A DNA stretch of 58,189 nucleotides from an uncultured Eubacteriales bacterium (GTDB taxonomy: Bacteria > Bacillota > Clostridia > Oscillospirales > Acutalibacteraceae). The stretch is from positions 1 through 58,189 of the forward strand of contig OMYD01000020.1 in NCBI GenBank assembly GCA_900315195.1, read 5' to 3'. The position numbers were made by a program, and so were the translations under genes. Positions 50,451-55,680 of the stretch are shown in pieces (the stretch's first letter is position 1; every line of letters starts with the position of its first letter). The notes beneath the pieces are model-generated. The model was not told the DNA's origin, searched no databases, and saw only the letters and a list, made by a program, of their open reading frames with translations.

Positions 50451-51797
50451 TTAGATAATATGTCCCTTTGCGCGGATTACGTCGATAATCTGATCAACAT
50501 ATTTCTCGCACTCTTCGTCGGAACCTGCCTCAGCCATAACGCGGATCACGGGCTCGGTGCCTGATTCGCGGAGAAGGATTCTTCCGTTATCGCCGAGAGC
50601 CTCGGCAACCTTGGCAACCTCCGCCTGTACGTCGGGGTCGTTCTTAGCGTCGGGCTTGGAATGAACGCGTACATTCTTAAGCACCTGGGGATACATAACC
50701 ATGGGAGCCGCAAGCTCGCTCATGGGCTTCTCCTTGGCAAGCATAACCTCCATAAGCTTTAGGGAGGTAAGAATGCCGTCGCCGGTTGTAGCGTACTTTG
50801 AGAAGATGATGTGTCCCGACTCCTCGCCGCCGAGGCGGTTGCCGGTCTTAACCATGTTCTCGTAAACATATTTGTCGCCTACGCTGGTCTTGTCGTATTC
50901 GATACCGACCTTGTCAAGCGCCTTAAACAGTCCGAAGTTGCTCATGATGGTGGCAACAACCTTATTGTTAAGGAGCTTGCCTCTTTCCTTCATGTAGCAG
51001 CCGTACATGTAGATGATGTGGTCGCCTGTAATAACGTTGCCCTTTTCGTCAACGGCAAGGCAGCGGTCAGCGTCGCCGTCGTAAGCAAAGCCGACGTCAA
51101 GGCCTTTTTCAACAACAAATTTCTGAAGGTGCTCAATGTGGGTAGAGCCGCAGTCGGTATTGATATTAAAGCCGTCGGGAGCGTCGTTGATAACGTACGT
51201 CTTAGCGCCCAGAGCGTCAAATACACCCTTGGCAATCTGCCATGCCGCGCCGTTTGCAACGTCAAGACCGACCTTAACGTCCTTGAAGCTGTATTTGCTC
51301 ATGGAAATGAGATAACCGATATAGCGGTTGCGGCCTGAAACATAGTCAACGGTTCTGCCGATATTCTCGCGCTGAGCAACGGGAATCTCAAGCTTATCGT
51401 CGATATAATCCTCAACCTTGAGCAGGGTTTCCTCCTCCATCTTTTCGCCCTTGCTGTTGAGCAGCTTAATGCCGTTGTCGTAGAAGGGGTTGTGAGAAGC
51501 GGAAATCATAATGCCGCAGTCAAAGTCGTCGATGCGTGTAATATAAGCCACGGAAGGAGTGGTTGTAACATGCATGATGTAAGCATCAGCGCCGCTTGCC
51601 ATAAGGCCTGTGCAAAGCGCGTACTCAAGCATATAGGAAGAACGGCGGGTATCCTTGCCGATAACTATTTTTGCCTTTTTACCCATGTTCTCGCCGAAAT
51701 ACCAGCCCAGAAAACGGCCGATTTTTACGGCATGCTCAAAGGTAAGATTCTTGTTGGCCTCGCCTCTGAAGCCGTCGGTACCAAAATATTTGCCCAT
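50451..51797 (-). CDS. glmM: phosphoglucosamine mutase
   Basis: 448 residues. It converts glucosamine-6-phosphate to glucosamine-1-phosphate. Start GKYFGTDGFRGEAN is family-typical. The phosphoserine loop is SASHNPFYDNGIK. The magnesium loop is DGDADRC. The phosphate-binding end is RESGTEPVIRVM. AAGGAAGG precedes the ATG, which overlaps the stop of the upstream gene by one base (TAATG). It is third in the operon nagB - beta-helix transferase - glmM under the glmS ribozyme. Confidence 0.97.
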   Translation of the reverse strand: MGKYFGTDGFRGEANKNLTFEHAVKIGRFLGWYFGENMGKKAKIVIGKDTRRSSYMLEYALCTGLMASGADAYIMHVTTTPSVAYITRIDDFDCGIMISASHNPFYDNGIKLLNSKGEKMEEETLLKVEDYIDDKLEIPVAQRENIGRTVDYVSGRNRYIGYLISMSKYSFKDVKVGLDVANGAAWQIAKGVFDALGAKTYVINDAPDGFNINTDCGSTHIEHLQKFVVEKGLDVGFAYDGDADRCLAVDEKGNVITGDHIIYMYGCYMKERGKLLNNKVVATIMSNFGLFKALDKVGIEYDKTSVGDKYVYENMVKTGNRLGGEESGHIIFSKYATTGDGILTSLKLMEVMLAKEKPMSELAAPMVMYPQVLKNVRVHSKPDAKNDPDVQAEVAKVAEALGDNGRILLRESGTEPVIRVMAEAGSDEECEKYVDQIIDVIRAKGHII

Positions 51798-52459
51798 TAG
51801 TTTTCCTTCCTTTCAATAACCGCTCCGCTGTTTTTGAAAATGCAGTTTTCGGGAATAACGCCGCGCACGCAAGAGGTGGGATAAACGCTTGAGTGTCTTC
51901 CGATAACCGTACCGGGGTTGCAAACCGCGTTGCAGCCGACCTCAACATAGTCGCCCAGCATTGCGCCGAATTTTTTAATGCCTGTTTCGATAAGCTCGGT
52001 GCCGTTGTGAACAACTACAAGCTTTTTGTCGGACTTAACATTAGATGTGATTGAACCGGCGCCCATGTGCGAGAAGTAACCCAGAATCGAGTCGCCGACA
52101 TAGTTGTAATGCGGTGTCTGAACATGGTCAAACAGAATTACGTTTTTCAGCTCAACCGAGTTGCCTACAACACAGTTAGCGCCGACAAGAGCCGAGCCGC
52201 GGACAAACGCGCCGTGTCTAACTTCTGTTTCGGGTCCGATAATACAGGGAGCGCCGAGATAAGCCGAGGGGAATACGGTTGCGGTTTTGTGAACCCAAAC
52301 ATTCTCTGAAACCTCGGTGTAGTCGTCGCCGAGTGTGGGGCCAAGCTCAAGAATAAAGTCCTTGATACCTTTAAGAGCCTCCCACGGATAGGTGAACTGT
52401 AAAAGATAGTCTTTTGCGAGTGTGTGGTCAAGATCGTAAAGATCCTTAATTGTATACAT
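51797..52459 (-). CDS. left-handed beta-helix sugar-phosphate transferase (GlmU C-domain-like)
   Basis: 220 residues. Hexapeptide repeats run from about 60 to 200 (IGPETEVRHGAFVRGSALVGANCVVGNSVE in part, then VGCNAVCNPGTVIGRHSSVYP). The fold matches the acetyltransferase domain of GlmU and related proteins often labelled UDP-GlcNAc pyrophosphorylase. The N-terminal pyrophosphorylase Rossmann domain of true GlmU is absent, so an acetyl transfer to glucosamine-1-phosphate is more likely than UTP transfer. Both ends overlap its neighbours (nagB and glmM) by one base in TAATG, so the three proteins are translated as a unit. GGAGAG precedes the ATG. Confidence 0.85.
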   Translation of the reverse strand: MYTIKDLYDLDHTLAKDYLLQFTYPWEALKGIKDFILELGPTLGDDYTEVSENVWVHKTATVFPSAYLGAPCIIGPETEVRHGAFVRGSALVGANCVVGNSVELKNVILFDHVQTPHYNYVGDSILGYFSHMGAGSITSNVKSDKKLVVVHNGTELIETGIKKFGAMLGDYVEVGCNAVCNPGTVIGRHSSVYPTSCVRGVIPENCIFKNSGAVIERKEN

Positions 52460-53250
52460 TAAAGTCTCTCCTTCTTCTCAATGTCGAGGAAGTATTTGTA
52501 AGTGTCAACAGTCAGCTCGCCGCAGGCAGCCTCATCGCAGGCGATGATAGCGCCGTTGTGCATCTGAAGAGCGGAGCAGGTCCACTTGTGGCTTACGGAA
52601 CCCTCTACGGTTTCGGCAAGCGCGCGAGCCTTGTTGTGGCCGTTAATAAGAATCAGAACTTCTTTTGAATCGGTAACTGTGCCAACGCCGACGGAAAGCG
52701 CCTGAGCGGGAACCGCCTCGGGATCGTTGCCGAAGAAGCGAGAGTTGACAATTCTGGTGTCGGTTGTAAGGTTTCTTACGCCTGTGCGAGAAGCAAGGCT
52801 TGTGAAGGGCTCGTTGAAAGCGATGTGGCCGTCAACGCCGATGCCGCCCATGAAAAGATCAATACCGCCGTAAGAAGCGATCTTTTCCTCATATCTTGCG
52901 CACTCGCCCTCGGGATCGTCAGTCATGCCGTTGAGAATATTGATGTTTTCGGGCTTCATGTCTACAAGGTGATCAAAGAAGTTGTCGTGCATGAAGTACC
53001 AATAGCTCTGGTCATGCTCGTGAGGAAGTCCGAGATACTCGTCCATGTTGAAGGTAACAACGTTGGCAAAAGAAAGCTCGCCTGCCTGATTCATTGTGTA
53101 AAGCTCTTTGTATACTCCGATGGGTGAAGAACCTGTGGGAAGTCCCAGAACAAATGGACGATCCTCTTTATGGTTTCTGATTTTGTCAGCAATGTAGTTA
53201 GCTGCCCATTTGCACATTTTATCATAATTGTCCTGAATAATAACTCTCAT
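52459..53250 (-). CDS. nagB: glucosamine-6-phosphate deaminase/isomerase
   Basis: 263 residues, full length for NagB. It interconverts glucosamine-6-phosphate with fructose-6-phosphate and ammonia. Motifs are LGLPTGSSPIGVYKEL for phosphate, FNMDEYLGL with the proton-transfer Asp, and GIGVDGHIAFNEP with the catalytic His and Glu. GGAGG lies before the ATG. Normally catabolic, it is here first in an operon with two synthesis genes and no nagA, and its mRNA carries a glmS ribozyme. This suggests that it works in the synthetic direction; the sequence alone cannot prove it. Confidence 0.96.
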   Translation of the reverse strand: MRVIIQDNYDKMCKWAANYIADKIRNHKEDRPFVLGLPTGSSPIGVYKELYTMNQAGELSFANVVTFNMDEYLGLPHEHDQSYWYFMHDNFFDHLVDMKPENINILNGMTDDPEGECARYEEKIASYGGIDLFMGGIGVDGHIAFNEPFTSLASRTGVRNLTTDTRIVNSRFFGNDPEAVPAQALSVGVGTVTDSKEVLILINGHNKARALAETVEGSVSHKWTCSALQMHNGAIIACDEAACGELTVDTYKYFLDIEKKERL

Positions 53251-53314
53251 AATATATCCTCCGATAAACTAAACATACTAAATGATAATTAATAAACAGT
53301 GACAAGAGAACCTC

Positions 53315-53455
53315 TGTTACAGTGTTGATTCTGCTTTTTAATTTCTCTCTTTCGACACACTGAAACGCGGTTTTCGCGTTTTCTTTGCCGTGGCAGCATC
53401 CGCCGAATCTTTCGATAACTGCCAGCCCTCGTCAACCCTTTCGGGTCCCGGCGCT
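53315..53455 (-). ncRNA. glmS self-cleaving ribozyme
   Basis: Read on the minus strand, the conserved core appears in order: A/GCGCC with the cleavage site between 53455 and 53454, a short P1 (ACCC-GAAA-GGGT), GTTGACGAGG, TTATCGA, TTCGGCGGATG, a P2 stem (TGGCAG with CTGCCA), a P3-like AACGCG...CCGCGTT, and a P4-like stem (CAGTGT...ACACTG, ending near 53320). This is the class activated by glucosamine-6-phosphate; cleavage exposes a 5'-hydroxyl end that leads to mRNA decay. It lies about 65 bases before nagB rather than before glmS, its usual position. Confidence 0.93.
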
Positions 53456-53580
53456 AATAGCTTCTGCATCCTCCTTTTTCAGAGGCTATTTTATGCGTAA
53501 ATTCACCGATTTATGCCAACATGGCAAACCGGCGGTTCAAAGTGTACTAAGCCTGAGTATAACACACCATAAACATAAAA

Positions 53581-53609
53581 ATTTTATCATATACAACGGC
53601 AAAAGTCAA
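53581..53609 (-). promoter_or_regulatory. promoter of the ribozyme-nagB operon
   Basis: On the minus strand TTGACT (53609-53604) and TAAAAT (53586-53581) are 17 bp apart. The start near 53574 gives a leader of about 325 nt that contains the ribozyme. Confidence 0.65.
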
Positions 53610-53640
53610 GTTACTTTTGGTCTTTTGGCGCTGTTATACA

Positions 53641-53684
53641 AACAAAAACAGGAATACAAAACTTTATAAAGTCCCGTATTCCTG
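53641..53684 (-). terminator. terminator of the capD-like gene
   Basis: CAGGAATAC and GTATTCCTG form a 9-bp stem with an A/T-paired inner part; on the minus strand TTTTTG follows. It stops transcription before the nagB promoter. Confidence 0.82.
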
Positions 53685-53693
53685 TATGCGCTT

Positions 53694-55559
53694 TTATTCT
53701 TTATGATTAAAAGTCGGAACAAGCTCTCTTAACATCTCTACGGTTTTTTTGCTGTCGTTAGCCTCGGCATATTCGTGCAGCACGCCAAGCTTTTTAAGCA
53801 TATCGTCCGCGTCAATTGAAATTTGATTTCCTATAAATATCTTTTTATTGGCGGTGGATTTAAGGCCCTCTTCATCCATAAGCAGCTCCTCAAACAGCTT
53901 TTCGCCCGGGCGAAGCCCTGTAAATACAATGGGAACTTCTTCGTATGGAACCTTGCCGTACATTCTGATAAGATTCTCCGCAAGGGTTGTAATCTTTACG
54001 GGAGCGCCCATATCCAGCACAAATATCTCTCCGCCCTTTGCCATGGCGCCTGCCTCAAGCACAAGTGAAACAGCCTCGGGAATTGTCATAAAATAGCGGA
54101 TTATATCGGGGTGAGTAACTGTTACGGGAGCGCCGCTCTCTATCTGGCGGCGGAAAAGCGGAATAACCGAGCCGTTTGAGCCCAGTACATTGCCGAAGCG
54201 GGTAGTTACAAACTCGGTATGTGTCGTGGTCTGCGCCTTGTACTGGATAATCATTTCACACGCGCGCTTTGTCGCGCCCATTACGTTGGTGGGGTTAACC
54301 GCCTTATCGGTGGAAATCATTACAAATTTATCCGCCTTGTAAAACTCGGAAAGCGTAGCCACGTTAAAAGTGCCGAAAATATTGTTTTTAACCGCTTCCT
54401 CGGGAGATGTCTCCATAAGCGGAACATGCTTATGAGCCGCGGCGTGAAAAACGATCTGCGGGTGATACTCCTTGAAAATGAGCTCCATTTTGCCGTAGTC
54501 ACGAACCGAAGCGATAAGCGTCACAAAGTTCAGATCATCGCCGTATTGAAGTCGAAGCTCCTGCTGAATGTCATAGGCGTTGTTTTCGTAAATGTCAACT
54601 ATAATTATCTGTTTCGGGCTGTATTTGGCTATCTGGCGTACAAGCTCACTGCCAATCGAGCCGCCTCCGCCCGTAACCATGCACACCTTGTCGCATATAA
54701 ATTGGGCGATTCTGTTTCGGTTGAATTCAATCGGCTTTCTGCCAAGCAAATCCTCAATTTTAATTTCCTTTGCCTGCGAAATAAGCTGCGGATCCTTATC
54801 GCCCAGAAGCAGCTCGCTAAGATACGGAACCACGCGGATATCGCATTTTGTGGATGAGCAATAGTCCAGAATTTTACGTTTTTCATCCTCTTCGCATGAA
54901 GGTACCGCGACAATAATAATGTCGATATCCAGCTCTTCGCTGAGCCGCGGAATCTCCGCGCAGACTCCCAAAACCTCAATTCCGTTTATTCTTCTGTGAA
55001 GCTTATTAGCGTCGTCATCCACAAGGCAGACAGGCAGCATGTTTGCGGATGGGTTTTTGGGGTCGTTATGCGCATTGTTGATTTCCGTCAGAATCATTCT
55101 TCCGGCCTGACCCGCGCCGACAATCATGGTGCGTTTAAACTGTGTCGACTGCCCGAAACGGGTTATTTTTAAGAAAGTTGATTTAAACAGGAACCTGAAC
55201 AGCAGCACGCCCGTTGTCGCGACTACATAAAATAAAACAAAAAACACCTTTCTCGGCTTCATGTTTATCAGCAACAATACGCCGTAGCCCATCAAAAAGC
55301 CGACTGTCATTCCCGCGCCGCACATGATATAGTCGCGAATGTTGAAATATCTCCAAATTCGCGAGTACGAACCGAACAGAAGCATCATAAGCTCGCATGT
55401 AAGAATATTTATCAGCAAATAGTAAAACAACATTCTGCTGGCTTCGGCTGAAATTACTTTTGTCAGAGAAAGCGCGTAGTTAAGCGTTATTCCGCTGACT
55501 ATTATAATGAAAACGTCCGCAAACAGCAATACTATTTTGCGGTAGTTCAGGTTTTTCAT
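53694..55559 (-). CDS. CapD/EpsC-type membrane nucleotide-sugar dehydratase
   Basis: 621 residues from the ATG at 55559; 28 open codons upstream lack a good ribosome site. Four to five N-terminal helices (about 8-135) are followed by a first Rossmann domain (MIVGAGQAGRMIL) and then a short-chain dehydrogenase domain (MVTGGGGSIGSELVRQIA). The active site is the ISTDKAVNPTNVMGATKR form seen in the UDP-GlcNAc 4,6-dehydratases (PglF, EpsC, CapD). It makes UDP-4-keto-6-deoxy sugars for surface polysaccharide or glycans. No other polysaccharide genes are next to it, though the upstream operon makes UDP-GlcNAc precursors. Confidence 0.94.
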   Translation of the reverse strand: MKNLNYRKIVLLFADVFIIIVSGITLNYALSLTKVISAEASRMLFYYLLINILTCELMMLLFGSYSRIWRYFNIRDYIMCGAGMTVGFLMGYGVLLLINMKPRKVFFVLFYVVATTGVLLFRFLFKSTFLKITRFGQSTQFKRTMIVGAGQAGRMILTEINNAHNDPKNPSANMLPVCLVDDDANKLHRRINGIEVLGVCAEIPRLSEELDIDIIIVAVPSCEEDEKRKILDYCSSTKCDIRVVPYLSELLLGDKDPQLISQAKEIKIEDLLGRKPIEFNRNRIAQFICDKVCMVTGGGGSIGSELVRQIAKYSPKQIIIVDIYENNAYDIQQELRLQYGDDLNFVTLIASVRDYGKMELIFKEYHPQIVFHAAAHKHVPLMETSPEEAVKNNIFGTFNVATLSEFYKADKFVMISTDKAVNPTNVMGATKRACEMIIQYKAQTTTHTEFVTTRFGNVLGSNGSVIPLFRRQIESGAPVTVTHPDIIRYFMTIPEAVSLVLEAGAMAKGGEIFVLDMGAPVKITTLAENLIRMYGKVPYEEVPIVFTGLRPGEKLFEELLMDEEGLKSTANKKIFIGNQISIDADDMLKKLGVLHEYAEANDSKKTVEMLRELVPTFNHKE

Positions 55560-55680
55560 GATATCCTGCCCCTTGTTTTTTCCGTAAGATTTCTCTGATT
55601 TATTATATCCCAAAACAAACCTGTTGTCAAACAGAATACTCAAATCTGCCTATGTTGCTTTTTTAAACAAATCGTTAATA

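Follow-up and report, generated by a model that had tools for sequence, protein, structure and literature searches.

The glmS ribozyme is the standard example of a catalytic RNA bound to a single gene, and all but two of the 463 glmS ribozymes in the survey by McCown (RNA 2011) reportedly lay in glmS mRNAs. NagB is known for the reaction opposite to that of GlmS, and is usually taken as catabolic. In Bacillus subtilis the ribozyme precedes glmS and exerts feedback on the formation of glucosamine-6-phosphate (GlcN6P), with glmM nearby, on the upstream side (PMC6171935). The NagB-family enzyme of the eukaryote Giardia synthesises GlcN6P from fructose-6-phosphate and ammonia and does not respond to GlcNAc6P as an activator, and the cited passages of that paper do not mention a ribozyme (PMC4281351). 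Akkermansia muciniphila has no glmS and one candidate NagB, with Km values of 41.3 mM for NH4 and 5.5 mM for fructose-6-phosphate; this enzyme deaminates, its amination was judged by the authors unlikely in vivo under physiological conditions, the organism needs GlcNAc or GalNAc, and the cited passages are silent on ribozyme control (PMC5902328). A literature search of titles and abstract starts, with the 2011 glmS-ribozyme survey outside its coverage, found no ribozyme-controlled nagB.

Here we describe what appears to be a new and conserved genetic role, at nagB, for a ribozyme class already known. In the window, by which we mean the whole stretch of DNA analysed (58,189 bases), nagB takes the place behind the ribozyme that glmS has in B. 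subtilis, while glmM is again close by and the feedback on GlcN6P formation would be of the same kind. The Giardia enzyme offers an aminating precedent for the role proposed below for the window's NagB, and the window's genome resembles that of Akkermansia in its missing glmS and single candidate NagB. The features of the locus are as follows.

53694..55643, minus strand: upstream Polysacc_synt_2 gene, with a homologue in genome G074
53648..53685, minus strand: terminator-like hairpin (17 pairs, loop 4) with a T-tract, after the upstream polysaccharide-biosynthesis gene
53581..53609, minus strand: putative sigma-70-like promoter, TTGACT-17-TAAAAT, a TG standing ahead of the second hexamer (10 of 12 consensus)
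53294..53466, minus strand: glmS-class self-cleaving ribozyme (RF00234, 59.3 bits; covariation in 25 sequences)
53258..53262, minus strand: GGAGG ribosome-binding site of nagB
52459..53250, minus strand: nagB, glucosamine-6-phosphate deaminase family, long type, 263 aa (equivalog model TIGR00502, 379 bits, cut-off 236.9)
51797..52459, minus strand: left-handed beta-helix acetyltransferase, 220 aa (TIGR03992, 138 bits, below the cut-off of 292.1)
50451..51797, minus strand: glmM, phosphoglucosamine mutase (equivalog model TIGR01455, 540.7 bits, cut-off 447.55)

The first-pass annotation had read a glmS ribozyme core ahead of nagB, a beta-helix transferase and glmM, and both the ribozyme and the gene order were borne out. 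When all 58,189 bases were scanned at the Rfam gathering cut-offs, the sole match was RF00234 glmS on the minus strand (53466-53294(-), 59.3 bits against a cut-off of 37, E 3.5e-11), covering the model in full (positions 1-167 of 167). This copy has all of the core blocks (AGCGCC, GACGAGG, ATCGA and TTCGGCGGATG), and its distal P4 hairpin deviates from the Rfam consensus. The span originally claimed, 53251-53610, contains the ribozyme, but the ribozyme proper is confined to 53294-53466 and the span also takes in the promoter-like site. By homology to the class, cleavage is predicted between A53455 and G53454. The G1 convention for the cleavage site is that of PMC6171935. A gap of 43 nt, with the GGAGG within it, separates the ribozyme from the ATG of nagB. 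The copy is thus like other members of RF00234 in its full-length match, its intact core, the AGCGCC at the cleavage site and its position just before a ribosome-binding site, and unlike them in its P4, in belonging with its relatives to a sub-type, and in heading a nagB-led cluster where the usual location would be a glmS mRNA. A chance match is ruled out by the full-length Rfam match, the covariation and the recurrence described below, and the ribozyme would be expected to self-cleave in response to GlcN6P. An open frame of 43 codons with an ATG start (53338-53469(-)) overlaps the catalytic core and is probably fortuitous.

Neighbouring genes of the operon share one base at each junction, nagB/transferase and transferase/glmM, and the three would be co-transcribed. 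Neither glmS nor nagA is among them, as had been claimed. The best PDB match of NagB is 7lqm (E 1.2e-100). The transferase is homologous to the C-terminal beta-helix domain of GlmU, with no listed GlmU model over its cut-off, and among solved structures it comes closest to 5z09 and 2ggo, in their C-terminal parts (E about 8e-22); it is probably, judging by these matches, the glucosamine-1-phosphate N-acetyltransferase half of GlmU. The putative promoter (53609-53581(-)) is the best of 9 in the region, with 4.1 expected from shuffles, and the terminator-like hairpins number 4 against 4.1 expected from shuffles, a consensus match only. Genome G074, of the same genus, has a homologue of the window's Polysacc_synt_2 gene that is 63% identical, with glmS two genes further on.

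The operon had further been proposed to bypass GlmS, and the genome to which the window belongs (G000: 2.11 Mb, 125 contigs, 96.17% complete, 6.34% contamination) was searched for both missing genes. No glmS over the cut-off was found with TIGR01135, whose six matches there all fell below it, the best reaching 124.2 bits over positions 1-219 only, the amidotransferase half; the same model gave a glmS over cut-off in 14 of 14 control genomes. A SIS-domain match to the glmS model was rejected as GlmS, being an RpiR-type regulator. The nagA model gave no match at E <= 0.001. With neither gene found, NagB is the only GlcN6P-forming enzyme found in this genome, and an intact glmS with its own ribozyme, which would have counted against the bypass, did not turn up: in a whole-genome Rfam search the single RF00234 match is the window copy. 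A complete GlmU over the cut-off of TIGR01173 was likewise not found among 10 matches in the genome; the best other match is a uridylyltransferase-only protein on contig C67 (231.9 bits, positions 3-240, below cut-off), which belongs to Pfam NTP_transferase. GlmU thus appears, as far as domain matches go, to be split between C67 and the window, in which case the window's transferase could complete the pathway.

Public genome contigs were scanned with the window's NagB; at least 592 stretches matched, at least 589 were confirmed, and the best 80 loci, with NagBs 71-100% identical to the window's, were used. They include the isolate Ruminococcaceae bacterium P7 (NagB 97%). Titles of these 80 loci name a ruminant animal in 32 cases, carry a RUG label in 25 more and a RUI label in 5, and have neither in 18; for the 37 ribozyme-positive loci among them the corresponding numbers are 9, 15, 5 and 8. 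We take the RUG and RUI labels to denote rumen collections. In 37 of the best 80 loci the ribozyme core pattern lies upstream of nagB or of the cluster of nagB, transferase and glmM, and 43 have no ribozyme match, a few of these ending at contig ends; an extra core-pattern match in L154 was dropped as false. The first gene behind the 37 ribozymes is nagB in 30, the transferase in 6 and glmM in 1, and in six loci (L129, L141, L146, L150, L157 and L159, the last stretch ending 2.1 kb after nagB) nagB is the sole one of the three genes in the fetched stretch.

A covariance model (R1) built from 24 of the 37 ribozymes and the window's, with 13 of the 37 outside the model, recovered the same 37 of the best 80 loci at 131-158 bits. 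In 60 other loci R1 gave 12 matches of 25-83 bits, all on RF00234 copies known from the family genomes and amounting to 11 distinct copies (L011 and L098 contain the same one), and it gave none at 47 other nagB loci. In a MAFFT alignment of the 25 sequences, with 31 pairs and pseudoknots not among them, 96.4% of cells are paired, a conserved paired core, and 17 of the 31 pairs change on both sides. Compensatory cells number 97 against 29.0 in shuffles, and 0 of 500 shuffles scored as high on any of five measures, a comparison that is inflated by related sequences; slid controls, which keep the relatedness but favour a structure drawn from the same alignment, were 33-51% paired. The nagB-linked ribozymes form a sub-type of RF00234 with strong covariation, which shows that the RNA is maintained.

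We also surveyed 150 genomes of the family, the window's included, where RF00234 gave 12 matches in 11 genomes. Of the eleven copies other than the window's, nine lie before glmS, one is unplaced at a contig end, and one belongs to G123. In this last genome (L098 8039-8190) the ribozyme sits immediately on the 3' side of a transferase-glmM pair, in a neighbourhood that has no match to glmS or nagB, and glmS is found elsewhere with no ribozyme match. Over cut-off, glmS is present in 98 of the 150 genomes and nagB in 90; nagB occurs in 45 of 52 genomes without glmS versus 45 of 98 with it (Fisher p 7e-7, species not being independent), and among the 114 better genomes in 30 of 34 versus 41 of 80 (p 1.4e-4). 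In the glmS-less genomes, the window's excluded, nagB lies beside glmM, with or without the transferase, in 7 of the 44 loci fetched (contig ends cut several of them), and in 1 of 35 fetched loci (of 45) in glmS-bearing ones. These glmM-adjacent nagBs are distant from the window's (33-46% identity), except in G126 (71%). Distant nagB with glmM, mostly with the transferase as well and with no ribozyme match, was seen in L022, L025, L030, L046, L047, L053 and L057 of glmS-less genomes and in L089 of a glmS-bearing one; such clusters are possibly independent substitutes for GlmS.

We think it likely that NagB forms GlcN6P by joining ammonia to fructose-6-phosphate, under feedback through the ribozyme, as the sole de novo route found here and as a route parallel to GlmS in most relatives. 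The aminating direction is one that we infer. NagB would aminate fructose-6-phosphate with NH4+ to GlcN6P, GlmM would convert this to GlcN-1-P, the beta-helix enzyme would acetylate GlcN-1-P, its presumed substrate, and the separate uridylyltransferase would then yield UDP-GlcNAc. Accumulated GlcN6P would serve as the ribozyme's cofactor, the mRNA leader would be cut just before nagB, and expression of nagB, transferase and glmM would fall. If NagB produces GlcN6P, cleavage at high GlcN6P amounts to product feedback, whereas if NagB consumes it, shutting a deaminase off by its own substrate would seem self-defeating. In most relatives the route would coexist with a glmS lacking its own ribozyme, the two perhaps dividing the work according to whether ammonia is plentiful or scarce. 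Some ribozyme clusters have glmS close by: after nagB in L176 (727.1 bits), directly upstream of the ribozyme in L149, and perhaps further down the cluster in L143. Furthermore, glmR/yvcK lies directly after nagB in L150 (5794-6735; TIGR01826, 268.2 bits) and, judged from motif and sequence alone, before glmM-nagB in L132 (3587-4528). GlmR reportedly stimulates GlmS in B. subtilis (PMC6171935), and the biosynthetic neighbours in L176, L150 and L132 count for a biosynthetic role, as does the greater frequency of nagB among family genomes without glmS. Against it stand the Akkermansia NagB, judged unlikely to aminate in vivo (PMC5902328), and the 43 of 80 loci in which no ribozyme was matched.

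Whole genomes were searched for 50 of the best 80 loci, comprising all 37 ribozyme-positive ones and 13 of the 43 negative ones. RF00234 was found at E <= 0.001 in 37 of the 50 genomes, 36 of them over the gathering cut-off, and by coordinate comparison, under stricter filters that may miss weak copies, all 37 carry the cluster copy; a further copy, located 34 nt ahead of glmS, occurs in G191 alone. Over cut-off, glmS is present in 37 of the 50 genomes, several of these counts resting on genes cut by contig ends, and in 28 of the 37 ribozyme-positive ones, 27 of the 28 having no second ribozyme; two of the nine others (G189, G194) have glmS fragments. The notion that all bearers of ribozyme-linked nagB lack glmS was consequently rejected, and since 28 of 37 keep it, NagB is not generally a replacement for GlmS. 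The bypass thus holds in so far as the window's own genome has no glmS or nagA match, and does not extend to most genomes with the same arrangement; the relatives' counts go against a general bypass and for a route parallel to GlmS.

The same counts bear on a salvage or auxotrophy explanation with a precedent in Akkermansia (PMC5902328), in which GlcN or GlcNAc is taken up where glmS is missing, NagB is catabolic, the ribozyme tunes glmM and the acetyltransferase to GlcN6P, and nagB is a passenger. Over cut-off, nagA is present in 21 of the 50 genomes (14 of 37 ribozyme-positive, 7 of 13 negative), and among the ribozyme-positive ones it occurs in 7 of the 9 without glmS over cut-off versus 7 of 28 with it (p 0.014). 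Those seven could therefore salvage GlcNAc, and the commoner nagA where glmS is missing fits salvage in those genomes and counts against the biosynthetic reading. In the window's genome PTS enzyme I (609 bits) makes uptake of glucosamine as GlcN6P possible. On the other side, no nagA match was found there, in 21 of the 37 ribozyme-positive genomes glmS exceeds its cut-off and nagA does not (7 have both, 7 nagA only, 2 neither), the ribozyme precedes nagB alone of the three genes in six loci, and cleavage at high GlcN6P would shut the deaminase off just when its substrate is plentiful. We consider the salvage explanation unlikely.

It could also be argued that the absence of glmS reflects a gap in assembly or binning, with an ordinary glmS present and the operon auxiliary, as in most relatives. 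The completeness and contamination figures of the assembly allow for this, and all 7 close relatives looked at (G150-G155, G158) have glmS over cut-off. Eight glmS loci fetched from seven relatives were compared, and four of them (L199, L200, L203, L205) lie beside a type III glutamine synthetase (GSIII). In L200 GSIII (Pfam GSIII_N) is followed by glmS; in L199 and L203 glmS adjoins a protein 61% and 81% identical, respectively, to the L200 GSIII, and its neighbour in L205 is a fragment of 106 aa that matches part of the L199 GSIII-like protein at 91.5% identity. An ammonium transporter (amt) follows glmS in L199, L200 and L205; a P-II domain accompanies it in the latter two, and L199 is cut. 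The GSIII-glmS arrangement is absent from L201, L202 and L204, and L206 is cut at glmS. On contig C45 of the window's genome, GSIII is followed, with no glmS between, by the amt leader and the start of amt up to the contig end. About 220 bases of unrelated, short palindromic repeat-like sequence (L217 5680-5900) stand where relatives have glmS, and the amt-side stretch, which begins 224 nt past the GSIII stop, is identical to L200 at 267 of 299 bases. The sole tblastn match to GlmS in the C45 stretch (31 residues, E 0.029) lies inside another gene and is not a convincing remnant, and no Rfam family exceeded its cut-off in L200 or L217.

The C45 junction is contiguous, so that a gap in the assembly there would not account for the absence. 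Identities to the relative G153 are similar for genes of C45 (GltB 92.9%, GlnN 85.7%) and of the window (transferase 92.7%, GlmM 93.3%), and C45 is therefore plausibly of the same organism. A glmS copy elsewhere in the unassembled part of the genome is possible, since relatives can have glmS at another place (L204, and a second copy in P7), but we regard an artefactual absence as quite improbable. After the second GSIII gene of the window's genome lies an ANTAR-domain response regulator (L218 4917-5486), which suggests antitermination control of nitrogen genes.

A wider extension of the biosynthetic reading can be offered tentatively, as a proposal about as apt to fail as to hold, or slightly more so. 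In gut Clostridia, many of them from ruminants, the ribozyme would have been reassigned to an ammonia-driven hexosamine route, with NagB as the everyday GlcN6P synthase of an ammonia-rich habitat and GlmS demoted to a nitrogen-starvation enzyme, found beside GSIII and an ammonium transporter in some relatives and lost in the window's genome. The arrangement suggests that its bearers could build cell-wall amino sugar directly from ammonia, an amino-sugar counterpart, if true, of glutamate dehydrogenase versus GS/GOGAT. A conserved nagB sub-type in dozens of species would then mean that the logic of this ribozyme follows the metabolite and not the gene, and would be genetic evidence that a bacterial NagB can be a committed biosynthetic step. 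The named isolate Ruminococcaceae bacterium P7 makes it possible to test the ambiguous direction of NagB.

That the ribozyme controls a GlmM/acetyltransferase branch, or is a relic of a glmS lost from the operon, with nagB entering later by transfer, is very unlikely: the clade's NagB does occur in assemblies that bear the labels Bacillota, Spirochaetota and Chloroflexota, the acetyltransferase or glmM comes first in 6 and 1 of 37 loci, and G123 has its ribozyme 3' of an acetyltransferase-glmM pair with no nagB beside, but nagB is first in 30 of 37 loci and alone in six, and the covariation speaks for a maintained RNA.

The NagB tree, in which 40 of 79 inner branches are weak, mixes assemblies with these three labels, and the ribozyme label needs 13 changes on it (27.3 in shuffles), of which the starred branches alone force only 1. 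Across six close relatives NagB is 96-99.6% identical while third codon positions are 64-69% identical in the five compared, and by this measure the protein is very constrained. Recent transfer of nagB alone from RUG135, suggested by 99.6% protein identity, was rejected, the DNA being 88% and third codon positions 66% identical. Seven residues of E. coli NagB that bind the activator GlcNAc6P are listed in PMC4281351. Two of these seven, Arg158 and Lys160, are replaced (by Gly and Arg) in all 81 NagBs, 38 ribozyme-linked, the window's included, and 43 unlinked. We assigned these two positions via aligned structures and residue numbering. Loss of allosteric residues was consequently discarded as a special mark of ribozyme-linked NagB, the ribozyme-free NagBs sharing the same replacements.
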